Below, piece by piece: positions 17,890 to 38,110 of a stretch of DNA of 64,000 nucleotides; position 1 is the first letter of the stretch, and the number at the start of each line of letters is the position of its first letter. The notes under the pieces were generated by a model that ran no database searches, was not told the DNA's origin, and saw nothing but the letters and a program-made list of their open reading frames with translations. The stretch comes from Nitrincola schmidtii (GTDB lineage Bacteria > Pseudomonadota > Gammaproteobacteria > Pseudomonadales > Balneatricaceae): assembly GCF_008973715.1 (NCBI RefSeq), contig NZ_WBOL01000006.1, forward strand, positions 1 through 64,000. The letters run 5' to 3'. Both the position numbers and the translations under genes were made by a program.

Positions 17890-18945
17890 TTAAACGGCGT
17901 CTTCTGTATGCAAATGAGATAATTCTCTTAACACGCTGGTGGCAAAAGCACCGGCGGGCAAGTCAAAACCTATTGTCCATTGATCGCTGGACTCTTTTTC
18001 TAGAAAAGCGTTATCAAGTAGGATTCGCGCGGCTCTTCGCTCTTGATTTAAACCTAAAGTTTCCAGACCTGAACAGAGTTCTTGCCAGGGTGAAACAACA
18101 GATTGCTCAAAAGCTTCCGCTTCCAAACGGGTCATCAAACCACCGCGCCCCCATAAAGGTGCAGTGAGATGCAAGTCTTTTTCTGCTAGCCTTAATGCTA
18201 GCCCTTCAGCTTCAGCTGGATCAAGGTAATTAAAACAACTTTGACTGGCATTAAGCATTAATACATCGCCGAGAGCAAGCTTGTCCCACAAGCCCTGATC
18301 TATACGTGCCGAGACGACTCGATTAAACAACATCGATCGCAACGCAGAGATATAAAGACCCCGCTTTTGTCGGTTATTTTCGCGTAACTCGCCTAATAAC
18401 ATCCGATAACCCTTGTACAGATTACCGTAGTCATGGCCGAAGCGTTGCTCACCAAAGTAATTGGGTACGCCTTTACACATCAACTGTTCAAATCGTTGCT
18501 GAAGATCGTCACCCTCGGTGACTTGTCTTAATTTAATAACAAAACGATTACCTTGATGGACACCCGTTTTCAATTTTCGACTGTGGCGAGCGTGACGAAG
18601 TACTTGAATAGTATCACTTTCAAACCCAGACCAATCAACCGCTTGTTTTATCGGAATCTTAACACTAAACCACTGCTCAGTAACCGCATGACGGTCCTTC
18701 TTACCGGCATAGCCAATGTCTTTAGGGTGGGTTTTTGTATGACGTGCGAGTTGTTGAGCAACCCAGTCAGTATTTTCACCTGTCTTACGAATCAGTGCGA
18801 AAACATGCTCACCTTCTCCATCAGGCTCAAAACCTAAGTTTTCAGTGACATAAAAATCTTCAGGTAAAGATCGAAAAACAGCTGTAGATTTGGGCTGACC
18901 CAAAAGCCATGTAAGCGGCTGGTGAAGAGATTCAATTAAACTCAT
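17890..18945 (-). CDS. truD: tRNA pseudouridine(13) synthase TruD
   Basis: Isomerises U13 of tRNA-Glu. 351 residues with the nucleophile Asp84 in GYAGKKDRHAVTEQW and the conserved NRFVIKLRQV and NYFGEQRFG motifs. The ATG overlaps the ftsB stop by one base (TAATG), so the two are translationally coupled. In most gammaproteobacteria ispD and ispF lie between ftsB and truD; here they are absent (see findings). Confidence 0.95.
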   Translation of the reverse strand: MSLIESLHQPLTWLLGQPKSTAVFRSLPEDFYVTENLGFEPDGEGEHVFALIRKTGENTDWVAQQLARHTKTHPKDIGYAGKKDRHAVTEQWFSVKIPIKQAVDWSGFESDTIQVLRHARHSRKLKTGVHQGNRFVIKLRQVTEGDDLQQRFEQLMCKGVPNYFGEQRFGHDYGNLYKGYRMLLGELRENNRQKRGLYISALRSMLFNRVVSARIDQGLWDKLALGDVLMLNASQSCFNYLDPAEAEGLALRLAEKDLHLTAPLWGRGGLMTRLEAEAFEQSVVSPWQELCSGLETLGLNQERRAARILLDNAFLEKESSDQWTIGFDLPAGAFATSVLRELSHLHTEDAV

Positions 18946-19241
18946 TACTGTGACCGTCTGCGTGTATCGGGTTCGATAAGACGAAAGAAAGTTTCGCCCT
19001 CTTGGATCAATCCCATTTCACTGCGCGCACGCTCTTCTATGGCCTTCAACCCTTCTTTAAGGTCGGCGACTTCCGCTTCTAAACGTTGATTACGCTCAGT
19101 AAGCAGTTGGTTTTCACGGCGCTGATCAATGATCGCCTGCTCCAGTTGCCAGACTTGGCGAATATTAGGATCACCCAGCCAAAGACGATACTGAAGGGCA
19201 GCTAGGAGCAACACAAGAAAGAGGAGTAACAAACGAAACAC
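18945..19241 (-). CDS. ftsB: Cell division protein FtsB
   Basis: Divisome scaffold of the FtsQLB complex, single-pass membrane protein of 98 residues. GTG start with AGGTGG upstream. N-terminal transmembrane helix (about 2-20), then a leucine-zipper coiled coil (about 28-72) and a short periplasmic tail ending in the conserved GLIQEGETFFRLI. Lies 61 bases downstream of eno and overlaps truD by one base. Confidence 0.93.
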   Translation of the reverse strand: MFRLLLLFLVLLLAALQYRLWLGDPNIRQVWQLEQAIIDQRRENQLLTERNQRLEAEVADLKEGLKAIEERARSEMGLIQEGETFFRLIEPDTRRRSQ

Positions 19242-19302: not shown

Positions 19303-20601
<1,299 letters not shown>

Positions 20602-32771: not shown

Positions 32772-35126
32772 TTAGAAAGACTGGCCTAACACAAACTGGA
32801 ACACTTCTTCATCGTCACCTGCAGCGCTGTTCAATGGCTTAGCCAAAGAAACCGATAAAGGACCCACTGGTGTTAACCAACTTAGACCAATACCTGCAGA
32901 GTAACGCAAATCGCCGAAGTCTACACCTTCGACACAGGTATCATTAACTGCGCCTGGTAAGCATTTAGTTGTGAAGACATTACCCGCGTCCATAAACACC
33001 AAAGTACGCCAAGCACTCTTGTCTTTTAAGAAAGGCATCGGGAAAATCAACTCAGCACTACCCGCCACTAAGACGTTACCACCCATAGAGCGCGGATTAC
33101 GACCTTGTCCACGATCATATCGAGGTCCAAGTGAGTTAGCCTCAAAACCGCGAATCGTTGTTAAGCCACCGGCATAGTAGTTTTTAAAGAACGGATAATC
33201 TGAGCCATTACCATAAGAATCAGCGTAACCCACTCTGCTTCGAACAGATGCTACCCAAGTTTCATCATTATTTATCGGCCAATAGAAGCGATTGTTATAC
33301 TGGGCACGATAGTATTCAAGATCGCTTCCGGGTACAGAAACCTCAAGCGTAGCACCCTGAGAACGACCACTGGTTGGAAAGAAGCCTCTATTTAGGCGAT
33401 TATCGCTCCAACCGGCAGTCAAGCGCCAGTTTAGATATTCGTCACCGTTATTCTTAATGAATTGCTCAATAACTTTATAGGCATCTGAATTATTATTTAC
33501 AGCACTGTTTTGCTTGATACGTAAGAACTCAACATCACCAGAAAAACTTAAACGCTGGAAATCATCAATTGGATAACCAAAGGTCACACCACCGCCAATA
33601 CCATCGGTGTTGTAATCACCACGATCGTCTTCATCAAAGTTTTCTTCACGGTAATAAAGATTAAATCCTCTACTAACGCCATCAACGGTATAGTATGGAT
33701 CAAGGTAATTAAAGCTGTATTCAGTCAATGTTGAGCTGTTGGATACATTAAACGCAACACTCTTACCCGAACCCAAGAAGTTATCCTGAGAAACACCCAA
33801 CTGAACGATAATACCTTCACTTTGAGAGAAACCCACACTCGCTGATAATTGGCCAGACTGCTGTTCTTCAACACTGAACTCTAGATCAATTTGATCATCC
33901 GTACCTGGAACAGGACGAGTTTCCACGTTAACTGACCTAAAGTGCCCAGTTCGCTCTAAACGAGTTTTAGAACGCTCAATGGCTGAAGTCGATACGATAC
34001 CAGCTTCCATCTGTTCAATTTCACGACGAACAACTTCATCTGTTGAACGTGTATTGCCACGAACAGATATACGTCTTACATAGGTAGGCTTGCCTGGTTC
34101 GATAAAATACCGTAGCGATACCGTACCGGCGGCCTCGTCAACTTGTGGTATCGGGCTAACGTTAGCAAACATAAAGCCCTGATCACCTAGCAATCTCTCT
34201 AGGCGCTCTTGAGAATCGGTCATTTCACGACGTGAAAACACATCACCCTCACCCAAGCTCATTTTTGCAAGCAATTGAGATTCTGGGACAACTAAGTTAC
34301 CGATCATTAACACTTCGTTAACACGGAACTGCTGACCTTCAGTGATACCTACGGTAATAAACACGTCTTGCTTGTCTGGAGAGACTGATACCTGAGTAGA
34401 ATCAATAGAGAAATTGATAAAACCACGATCTAAGTAATGCGAACGAAGACGCTCCAGATCACCAGAAAGCTTTTCACGCGAATACTGATCATCTTTTCTC
34501 CAGAAGGATAGCCAGTTTGGCAATTTCAGAGAAAACAGATCTAATAATTCGTCATCCGGAAAGGTTTCATTCCCTATGATGTTAATATGCTGAATGGTTG
34601 CGATGCGACCTTCAGTGATATTGATATTTAGGGCAACACGATTTCCAGGCAGATTTTCAACTTCAGTGGAAATATTGGCACCGTAACGGCCTTGTGATGC
34701 GTAAACACGCATCAGGTCCAATTCAATTTGATCTAGAGTTGCGCGACGGAACACATCACCTTCCTGAAGACCTGACTGTTTCAAACCTTCACGTAACTGC
34801 TCTTCTTTGATCGCTTTATTGCCATCTATTCGAATAATCGCTACCGCAGGACGCTCTCTTAATACAAGAACTAAGATATCGCCATCTCGGTTGATCTGTA
34901 CATCATCAAAGAAACCCGAACGAAATAGCTGTCGCGTTGCCGCTGCTAGCTGAGCAGAGTCAATTTGATCCCCTGTTGATATAGGGAAGTTTCTAAATAC
35001 AGTTCCGAGATCAACCTGCTGCACACCTTCCACACGTATGTCACTGACGACAAATGGAAAGGTTTGTGCATGCACAGGAGAAAACCAGAACAAAGATATC
35101 AGGATCAGAATTAGCGTACGCTTCAT
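32772..35126 (-). CDS. bamA: Outer membrane protein assembly factor BamA
   Basis: Core of the BAM complex that inserts beta-barrel proteins. 784 residues with a signal peptide (cut near Ala20, PVHA|QT). Five POTRA domains (about 22-420) are followed by a 16-strand barrel. The barrel carries the conserved GGLTTIRGFEANSLGPR motif (lid-lock RGF) and ends in a terminal aromatic, QSF. Between rseP and skp as usual. Confidence 0.97.
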   Translation of the reverse strand: MKRTLILILISLFWFSPVHAQTFPFVVSDIRVEGVQQVDLGTVFRNFPISTGDQIDSAQLAAATRQLFRSGFFDDVQINRDGDILVLVLRERPAVAIIRIDGNKAIKEEQLREGLKQSGLQEGDVFRRATLDQIELDLMRVYASQGRYGANISTEVENLPGNRVALNINITEGRIATIQHINIIGNETFPDDELLDLFSLKLPNWLSFWRKDDQYSREKLSGDLERLRSHYLDRGFINFSIDSTQVSVSPDKQDVFITVGITEGQQFRVNEVLMIGNLVVPESQLLAKMSLGEGDVFSRREMTDSQERLERLLGDQGFMFANVSPIPQVDEAAGTVSLRYFIEPGKPTYVRRISVRGNTRSTDEVVRREIEQMEAGIVSTSAIERSKTRLERTGHFRSVNVETRPVPGTDDQIDLEFSVEEQQSGQLSASVGFSQSEGIIVQLGVSQDNFLGSGKSVAFNVSNSSTLTEYSFNYLDPYYTVDGVSRGFNLYYREENFDEDDRGDYNTDGIGGGVTFGYPIDDFQRLSFSGDVEFLRIKQNSAVNNNSDAYKVIEQFIKNNGDEYLNWRLTAGWSDNRLNRGFFPTSGRSQGATLEVSVPGSDLEYYRAQYNNRFYWPINNDETWVASVRSRVGYADSYGNGSDYPFFKNYYAGGLTTIRGFEANSLGPRYDRGQGRNPRSMGGNVLVAGSAELIFPMPFLKDKSAWRTLVFMDAGNVFTTKCLPGAVNDTCVEGVDFGDLRYSAGIGLSWLTPVGPLSVSLAKPLNSAAGDDEEVFQFVLGQSF

Positions 35127-35167: not shown

Positions 35168-36520
35168 TTACAGGCGTGCTAGATCATTAAATATTGCCAG
35201 AGCCATTAAACTGAACAACAGGAACATACCTATTTTCAGCCCAATCATTTGAACTTGCTCACTGACTGGCTTACCTCTGATCAGCTCGACCATATAATAC
35301 ATCAGATGGCCACCATCTAGCATCGGTATTGGCAACAAATTCAAAATTCCTAAGCTGATACTCAGGTAGGCAAGAAACATAATAAAGGTTTCGAACCCAG
35401 AGGCAGCAGAGTCACCTGCCACTTTAGCAATGGTTATCGGTCCACTCAAGTTTTTAACTGAAATGATCCCTACAATCATTTTTCTGATAGAGTCGAGCGT
35501 CAACATGATCATCTGACCAGTCCGGTCAACACCCATGACTAATGCTTGCACGGGGCCATAGCGTATTTCCCGTAACATCTCATCAGGCCACTCTGGCATC
35601 TGCACTCCCGCACCAATATATCCGGAAAGTGTTCCGTCTTCACCCTTACGAGCAGCCGGTGTCACATCAATTGTCAACAAACGACCATTTCTATCTATTT
35701 CGAAGGTTAACGGCTGTTCAGGGCTTTGCTGTATCTGCTCTACCAAACCTTGCCATGTATCCAAAAGCTGGCCGTTTAAGCTGACTATTTGATCACCTGT
35801 TTGCAGCCCTGCTTGAGCCGCACGACCATCGTTAACCAGCTGACCTAAAACTGGCGCAACATCAGGACGCCAAGGAATAAATCCCAATGCAGAGACGGGT
35901 GATTCCCGCTCCAGATCCACTCGCCAATCATTCAAACTAACGTGATACAGACGGACACTTCGACCAGGCTCTGCGGCTTCTACCTCGATAACTCGCGTAT
36001 CACCAATTAAAGCAGCCAAACGCAAATTCACTTGATCCCATGAATTCACACGAAAACCATTAATCGACAAGATCTCTTCACCTGACTGAACACCTGCGAT
36101 TTCAACAGGCGATCCGGGCCTTACCTCACCCACTTTGGGGATGACAACGCTAGTACCGACAACAAATAGAAACCAGTAGGCTAAAACAGCAAAAAGTAAA
36201 TTGACGATAGGCCCTGCGGCCACGATCGCAATGCGTTGCAGTACTGGCTTAGTATTGAAAGCTTGACCTTGCCACTCGGGTGGAACCTTGTCTTCACGCT
36301 CATCCAGCATGCGCACATAACCACCTAAAGGAATTGCTGCTACAACATACTCAGTTTCATCTTTACCACGCCAGGAGAATAATGGCTTACCAAAACCTAC
36401 TGAAAACCTGAGCACCCGCACACCACATCGGCGCGCTACCCAGTAGTGACCCCACTCATGAATAGTGACTAGAATTCCAAGAGTAACCAGTGTGGCTAAG
36501 ATGGTCTGGATCAAACCCAT
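35168..36520 (-). CDS. rseP: RIP metalloprotease RseP
   Basis: Site-2 intramembrane protease of the sigma-E envelope stress cascade. 450 residues. Zinc motif HEWGH at 21-25 in the first transmembrane helix. Two periplasmic PDZ domains (about 110-210 and 210-300). The second zinc-ligand motif is MLDGGHLMYY near residue 400. The ATG lies 30 bases after the cdsA stop; dxr, usually between them, is missing. Confidence 0.96.
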   Translation of the reverse strand: MGLIQTILATLVTLGILVTIHEWGHYWVARRCGVRVLRFSVGFGKPLFSWRGKDETEYVVAAIPLGGYVRMLDEREDKVPPEWQGQAFNTKPVLQRIAIVAAGPIVNLLFAVLAYWFLFVVGTSVVIPKVGEVRPGSPVEIAGVQSGEEILSINGFRVNSWDQVNLRLAALIGDTRVIEVEAAEPGRSVRLYHVSLNDWRVDLERESPVSALGFIPWRPDVAPVLGQLVNDGRAAQAGLQTGDQIVSLNGQLLDTWQGLVEQIQQSPEQPLTFEIDRNGRLLTIDVTPAARKGEDGTLSGYIGAGVQMPEWPDEMLREIRYGPVQALVMGVDRTGQMIMLTLDSIRKMIVGIISVKNLSGPITIAKVAGDSAASGFETFIMFLAYLSISLGILNLLPIPMLDGGHLMYYMVELIRGKPVSEQVQMIGLKIGMFLLFSLMALAIFNDLARL

Positions 36521-36550
36521 GTAATACTCCAGATCAATTTCGTCGCAGAC

Positions 36551-37360
36551 CTAAAGGACTGGAAAATAGATCAAACCTAATAAAAAAATCGGTGCAGCAG
36601 CAGTAATACTATCGATACGATCTAGTACACCACCATGCCCGGGTAACAGGGTACCACTGTCTTTGATGCCACGTTCACGCTTGAACATACTTTCAAAAAG
36701 ATCACCTAAAACAGAAGCTACCGCTGTTATTACGGCTAACACGATTAAAAAGACCGCTGAAACGAATGAAAGTTCTCTTAAGAATGCGTAAACAGCGGCA
36801 ATTACAACACAGGTTACCAAGCCTCCATAAACCCCTTCTAAGGTTTTTCCTGGGCTTACTCGTGGCATTAATTTTCGCTTGCCCATCGCGCGACCAGCAA
36901 AGTAGGCTCCTGTATCTGCGCCCCACACCAAGAAAAGCAACAAAAAAATTAACCACACCCCGTCTGGAAGCGCTTTAATTGCAGTCAGAGCGGCCCATGC
37001 CGGAACTAACACCCACATTCCGATAACGAGTTTTGGTCCACAGGCCGACCAGCGCAACCCCTCTGGAAACCTCAACACCATCACAATCGCAAGCAACCAA
37101 AACAAGCCCGCGGCTATGACTATGGTAGTCAATAAGTTATGCAACCCGATTGCTGCAATGACGCACATAATCAAACCAGCCACACCGACATAAACCAAAC
37201 GATTTTGACGACCAATGCGGCAAAAATTCGACCACTCCCACGCACCATATAGGGTTACGCAACCAACCAACAGCGAAAACAGCCACACAGGAGCCCAAAT
37301 CACGGCACCAAGCACCAGAATGCCTAATATCAAAGCTGTTATCACTCGTTGTTTCAGCAC
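36551..37360 (-). CDS. cdsA: Phosphatidate cytidylyltransferase
   Basis: Integral membrane enzyme making CDP-diacylglycerol for phospholipid synthesis. 269 residues and about eight hydrophobic helices. The C-terminal signature FKRERGIKDSGTLLPGHGG...RIDS is intact. GTG start three bases after the uppS stop, hence coupled. Confidence 0.95.
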   Translation of the reverse strand: MLKQRVITALILGILVLGAVIWAPVWLFSLLVGCVTLYGAWEWSNFCRIGRQNRLVYVGVAGLIMCVIAAIGLHNLLTTIVIAAGLFWLLAIVMVLRFPEGLRWSACGPKLVIGMWVLVPAWAALTAIKALPDGVWLIFLLLFLVWGADTGAYFAGRAMGKRKLMPRVSPGKTLEGVYGGLVTCVVIAAVYAFLRELSFVSAVFLIVLAVITAVASVLGDLFESMFKRERGIKDSGTLLPGHGGVLDRIDSITAAAPIFLLGLIYFPVL

Positions 37361-37363
37361 AAA

Positions 37364-38110
37364 TTAAGCCTCTATCTGGTCTGATGTTTTTCCAAATCGT
37401 CGCTGACGACTTGAATAGCATTCGATTGCCTTTTGCAAATCAGCTTTGCCAAAATCTGGCCAATAGCAATCGCAAAAGTAAAGTTCAGTATATGCCATCT
37501 GCCATATTAAGAAATTACTGATTCTTTGCTCACCCCCTGTCCTAATACATAAATCAGGAGCAGGCAAATCAGCAAGAGAGGTAAAATTATTGAAACATAC
37601 CTCATCAATATCATCTAACTGAATTTTGCCAAGAAGGCAGGCTTGCGTGAGCTTTTTAGCAGATTCAACAATATCCCACCGACCACCATAGTTAGCAGCA
37701 ACGTTAAGCACTAAACGGGTGTTATTGGCAGTAAGCAACTCTGCATCATGCATACGCTTTTGTAACTTTTCAGAGAAACGACTGCGATCGCCAATAATGC
37801 GCAGACGAATGCCATGACGATGTAATTTCTTTACCTCTCGGTCAAGCGAGAGTAAAAAAAGATCCATCAAGCCACTGACTTCTTTTTCAGGTCGTTTCCA
37901 GTTTTCACTACTAAACGCAAATAGGGTAAGTACCTCGACACCCAGCTCAACACAGGCTTCGATGGTTTGCCTTACACTATGCACACCTGCTTTATGCCCA
38001 GCCAAACCTGGCAAATGACGCTGTTTAGCCCAACGATTATTACCATCCATAATGATGGCAATATGCGCAGGCAAAGAAGCAGATGTAAATGAGGAATCTG
38101 ATGAGGACAT
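37364..38110 (-). CDS. uppS: Undecaprenyl diphosphate synthase
   Basis: Cis-prenyltransferase that elongates farnesyl-PP with isopentenyl-PP to the C55 wall lipid carrier. 248 residues. IIMDGNNRWAKQR at 19-31 with catalytic Asp22, and the CIRTGGEQRISNFL signature. Its presence shows that isopentenyl-PP must be made even though MEP genes are absent from this region. Confidence 0.96.
   Translation of the reverse strand: MSSSDSSFTSASLPAHIAIIMDGNNRWAKQRHLPGLAGHKAGVHSVRQTIEACVELGVEVLTLFAFSSENWKRPEKEVSGLMDLFLLSLDREVKKLHRHGIRLRIIGDRSRFSEKLQKRMHDAELLTANNTRLVLNVAANYGGRWDIVESAKKLTQACLLGKIQLDDIDEVCFNNFTSLADLPAPDLCIRTGGEQRISNFLIWQMAYTELYFCDCYWPDFGKADLQKAIECYSSRQRRFGKTSDQIEA

Follow-up and report, generated by a model that had tools for sequence, protein, structure and literature searches.

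Very probable wholesale replacement of the MEP pathway by a mevalonate operon in an ancestor of the Nitrincolaceae and close neighbours, with the dxr gap of Nitrincola schmidtii as one scar

Among Gammaproteobacteria, Legionella and Coxiella also carry the mevalonate pathway in place of the MEP pathway. In Coxiella, the genes CBU_0607-0609, for mvaD, phosphomevalonate kinase, and mevalonate kinase, are adjacent and in an order matching the operon described below (PMC7549970), and TraDIS found most of the Coxiella mevalonate genes to be essential (PMC9997736). In a 2026 review, Legionella is scored as being without a phosphomevalonate kinase, and the question is left open (PMC13001223). A 2017 paper noted that the mevalonate gene clusters of 'Ca. 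Liberibacter' and Marinobacterium share one gene order and over 50% identity (PMC5291501). The mevalonate genes of Gram-positive cocci (mvaK1, mvaD, mvaK2, mvaS, mvaA) represent the same chemistry and the same steps as the operon found here. A search of the literature on Nitrincola and mevalonate found nothing relevant.

The DNA analysed here is a stretch of 64,000 nucleotides from Nitrincola schmidtii (the window), in which the standard order around cdsA is whole except for dxr, as seen from the following features.

37364 to 38110, minus strand: uppS, undecaprenyl diphosphate synthase, a consumer of IPP (PF01255, 1.9e-84)
36551 to 37360, minus strand: cdsA, phosphatidate cytidylyltransferase, flanking the lost dxr on the left (PF01148, 4.3e-62)
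36521 to 36550, minus strand: the cdsA-rseP junction, 30 bases, dxr absent (from the sequence and comparison with relatives)
35168 to 36520, minus strand: rseP, site-2 protease, flanking the lost dxr on the right (PF02163; TIGR00054 411 bits, cut-off 147.6)
32772 to 35126, minus strand: bamA, which completes the order uppS-cdsA-(dxr)-rseP-bamA (ORF translation read by eye only)

The identities of CdsA, UppS, and RseP were confirmed by Pfam/NCBIfam. The stop codon of cdsA is the TAG at 36553-36551 and the start codon of rseP is the ATG at 36520; the sole content of the 30 bases between them is the Shine-Dalgarno sequence of rseP, with the minus-strand end of 36521-36550 reading ...CTGGAGTATTAC directly before the ATG. 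The claim of the initial annotation that this junction lacks dxr and holds just the ribosome-binding site of rseP is thus confirmed, and its claim of a second locus from which MEP genes are missing proved equally real. This second site is that of ispD and ispF, with the gene order eno-ftsB-truD-surE-pcm.

19303 to 20598, minus strand: eno, upstream of ftsB (TIGR01060 672 bits)
18945 to 19241, minus strand: ftsB, whose TAA overlaps the truD ATG, at the ispD-ispF site (from the sequence)
17890 to 18945, minus strand: truD, directly after ftsB (TIGR00094 208 bits, cut-off 172)

The overlap of the ftsB stop and the truD start reads TAATG, and a reading of the locus sequence found neither ispD nor ispF at their usual site beside ftsB; the eno-ftsB-truD site is as clean as the cdsA-rseP site. 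It is very likely that the mevalonate pathway replaced the MEP pathway wholesale in an ancestor of the Nitrincolaceae and their close neighbours, and that the gap at dxr is one scar of this replacement.

The initial annotation had named the mevalonate route as the likely replacement, and this is supported by a six-gene operon, mvaA-fni-mvaS-kin1-kin2-mvaD, on another contig of the genome (G000:C12, about 235992-242251; L002:7993-14252), in which kin1 and kin2 are two GHMP kinases. Its mvaS gene encodes an HMG-CoA synthase (TIGR01835 529 bits, cut-off 360), fni a type 2 IPP isomerase (TIGR02151 365 bits, cut-off 281), and mvaD a diphosphomevalonate decarboxylase (TIGR01240 312 bits, cut-off 171). 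The product of mvaA is an HMG-CoA reductase (E 7.8e-83; PF00368 279 bits), under the strict cut-off of TIGR00533 (273 versus 442) though far over that of Pfam. The reductase motifs ATYE, DKK, and GQD and the C-terminal histidine are kept in 79-80 of 80 family rows; they contain the Glu, Lys, Asp, and His of the active site, as assigned by comparison with the human enzyme. The usual signature of HMG-CoA reductases is DAMGxN; the reductase here (L002:7993-9045) reads DASGHN, which is invariant in the 80 family rows. Contigs that end early aside, the six-gene order is kept in about 80 fetched loci. The end of mvaD is overlapped by polB, for DNA polymerase II (L002:14239-16581), which follows the operon in most family loci, and in f134, a gammaproteobacterial family, the HMG-CoA synthase and kin1 are fused in one frame of 739-760 amino acids (L196:9013-11232, L208:6657-8939).

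Both kinases score under the curated mevalonate kinase cut-off and far under the phosphomevalonate kinase cut-offs, with neither reaching the phosphomevalonate kinase models TIGR01220 and NF040957; the genome has no canonical phosphomevalonate kinase and no GHMP kinase outside the operon. With a score of 139 against the mevalonate kinase cut-off of 163, kin1 has a PGK...GEH motif in which the motif lysine is kept, and the best fold match of its model is the mammalian mevalonate kinase 1kvk (E 2.2e-21). For the model of kin2 the best match is a mevalonate kinase of Methanosarcina; serine replaces the motif lysine in 64 of the 69 rows with a letter at that position, and the motifs RGSG-D and GYK-T are invariant. 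At least 19 further gammaproteobacterial genomes give strong matches to a profile of kin2; the matching proteins have the same features and are mostly encoded in the same kin1-kin2-mvaD order, and dxr is absent from 18 of these 19. kin1 is predicted to be the mevalonate kinase and kin2 the phosphomevalonate kinase, kin2 being, we infer, the best candidate for the latter step. It is reasonably likely that kin2 is a phosphomevalonate kinase of an uncharacterised type, a relative of archaeal mevalonate kinase, in which Ser or Asn takes the place of the motif lysine (APGS...MGEH) and is conserved family-wide together with an RGSGxD loop and a GYKT motif; if so, kin2 would fill the step that Legionella is reported to lack.

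Isoprenoid auxotrophy, or a modified mevalonate route that dispenses with phosphomevalonate kinase (for example, through a phosphomevalonate decarboxylase and an isopentenyl phosphate kinase), would also account for a genome in which NCBIfam recognises no such enzyme, and the same question is open for Legionella (PMC13001223). However, mvaD scores 312 bits against the diphosphomevalonate decarboxylase equivalog (cut-off 171) but only 137 bits against the bypass enzyme (cut-off 475), the operon contains a second kinase that is strictly conserved, and in Coxiella the gene at the same position, CBU_0608, which lies between mvaD and the mevalonate kinase gene, is annotated as a phosphomevalonate kinase (PMC7549970). 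The family includes cultured, free-living strains, which makes auxotrophy unlikely, and overall neither version of this explanation is at all probable.

Wholesale replacement by the mevalonate pathway is in keeping with the content of the rest of the genome (3.14 Mb in 34 contigs, 100% complete). The genome-wide search found no match for dxr (PF02670) and no ispG/GcpE, ispH/LytB, or ispF/YgbB; the whole genome has three GHMP kinases, every one of them inside the mevalonate operon, and there is therefore no ispE. A true dxs is present (TIGR00204 719 bits, cut-off 466), in an ordinary ispA-dxs locus. The claim of the initial annotation that the whole MEP pathway was lost thus stands for dxr, ispE, ispF, ispG, and ispH across the genome and for ispD at its usual site, but not for dxs. 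DXP is a precursor also of thiamine and of pyridoxal phosphate (vitamin B6), and the need for it in these syntheses is probably the reason that dxs was retained. Some 30 residues of the DXP_synthase_N profile (193-225) are missing from the dxs frame (L006:7961-9742), which nevertheless scores as genuine.

These absences also bear on the idea that dxr has merely moved, or has been replaced by a type II enzyme (DRL), with the MEP pathway intact elsewhere in the genome. Gene relocation is common, and a few related genomes give weak PF02670 matches (21-24 bits); the genome itself, however, has no dxr, and the lack of GcpE and LytB already refutes this explanation. A DRL is ruled out as a substitute, since it would have no downstream pathway with ispE, ispF, ispG, and ispH all missing. 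Two of the weak PF02670 matches were examined and rejected as dxr, being ordinary homoserine dehydrogenases with an ACT domain. The chance that dxr persists in another place or form is accordingly very slight.

The pathway swap is common to all Nitrincolaceae and their neighbours, and not peculiar to one strain. Among 77 related genomes, 48 of them from the family (16 genera) and 29 from other families of the order, an HMG-CoA reductase was present and a true dxr absent in all 48 of the family, three of which gave a partial PF02670 match of 21-22 bits, while dxr was present in all 29 of the others. LytB was found in none of the 48 versus all 29, and IspF in none of 36 family genomes versus 21 of 21 from the other families. 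A true dxr was likewise absent from all 32 further genomes reached through named loci, which comprised Nitrincola, Marinobacterium, Neptunomonas, Neptuniibacter, Amphritea, Pontibacterium, Osedax symbionts, Motiliproteus, Pokkaliibacter, and MAGs. At the sequence level, the reductase shares 93-99% identity with several records of Nitrincola and its relatives. The spacing between cdsA and rseP was -1 to 33 bases in all 30 family rseP loci measured, versus 1206-1468 bases, with dxr inside, in six of six loci from the other families of the order. An artefact of assembly or binning, conceivable in a draft of 34 contigs, is the most remote explanation of all and already refuted, because the short junction recurs in 30 of 30 family genomes against a dxr-length one in the six relatives, which excludes chance or misassembly, and because the same genes are absent from 47 relatives, several of them assembled on one or two contigs.

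As to how the replacement by the mevalonate pathway may have come about, the operon would supply IPP and DMAPP from acetyl-CoA, a flux that the genes predict. With the operon in place, dxr, ispD, ispF, ispE, ispG, and ispH would have become dispensable and been lost, and at both sites in the window the MEP genes appear to have been cut out cleanly, leaving their neighbours undisturbed. The reductases of the group fall together on one side of a branch (supported at 96/97 and in 98% of bootstrap trees), those of other gammaproteobacterial families adjoin this branch, and those of order members that keep dxr lie extremely far away. The simplest reading, leaving donor and direction aside, is a single acquisition in an ancestor shared by Nitrincolaceae, Motiliproteus, and Pokkaliibacter. 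Four dxr-bearing members of the order (G048, G050, G059, and G075; L013-L016) have a very distant HMG-CoA reductase; these reductases were rejected as a source, as they belong to a very distant group and their genomes keep dxr. The sole dxr-bearing genome among the 19 with a strong kin2 match, G370, carries the mevalonate operon and has the order uppS-cdsA-(dxr)-rseP. In its dxr frame (L218:1299-2129, G370:C4, minus strand), PF02670 positions 1-125 are joined in frame to position 27 of PF13288, such that the N- and C-terminal domains are kept and the central domain is missing. It is plausible that this remnant shows another lineage part-way through the same loss at this site, with the caveat that the assembly is contaminated (96% complete, 3% contaminated).

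The importance of these findings lies in a clean, family-wide swap of an essential pathway that has left its excision sites intact, in gammaproteobacteria that are largely free-living. The whole family is predicted to resist fosmidomycin and to be sensitive to statin-type drugs, and the phosphomevalonate kinase step in proteobacterial mevalonate pathways is narrowed to one candidate gene. In comparison with known systems, Legionella and Coxiella are intracellular, whereas the family here is largely free-living and aquatic, with genomes of 2-6 Mb; the link to these two genera rests on gene order taken from papers. In contrast to the Gram-positive cocci, the operon here has a Class I-like reductase and another gene order, and kin2 falls outside the Gram-positive phosphomevalonate kinase family (57 bits versus a cut-off of 166). 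Marinobacterium falls within the same group of genera, and its species M. jannaschii, M. stanieri, and M. litorale share the six-gene order at their loci. The cluster itself is reported in the 2017 paper (PMC5291501), whose consulted passages leave out the loss of the MEP genes in Marinobacterium, the scars, the family-wide distribution, and the kinase question. The biology is therefore largely known, a further case of a known phenomenon with a cluster already reported for Marinobacterium, and the added value is in the cleanness of the scars, the completeness of the swap across the family, and a candidate for the kinase.
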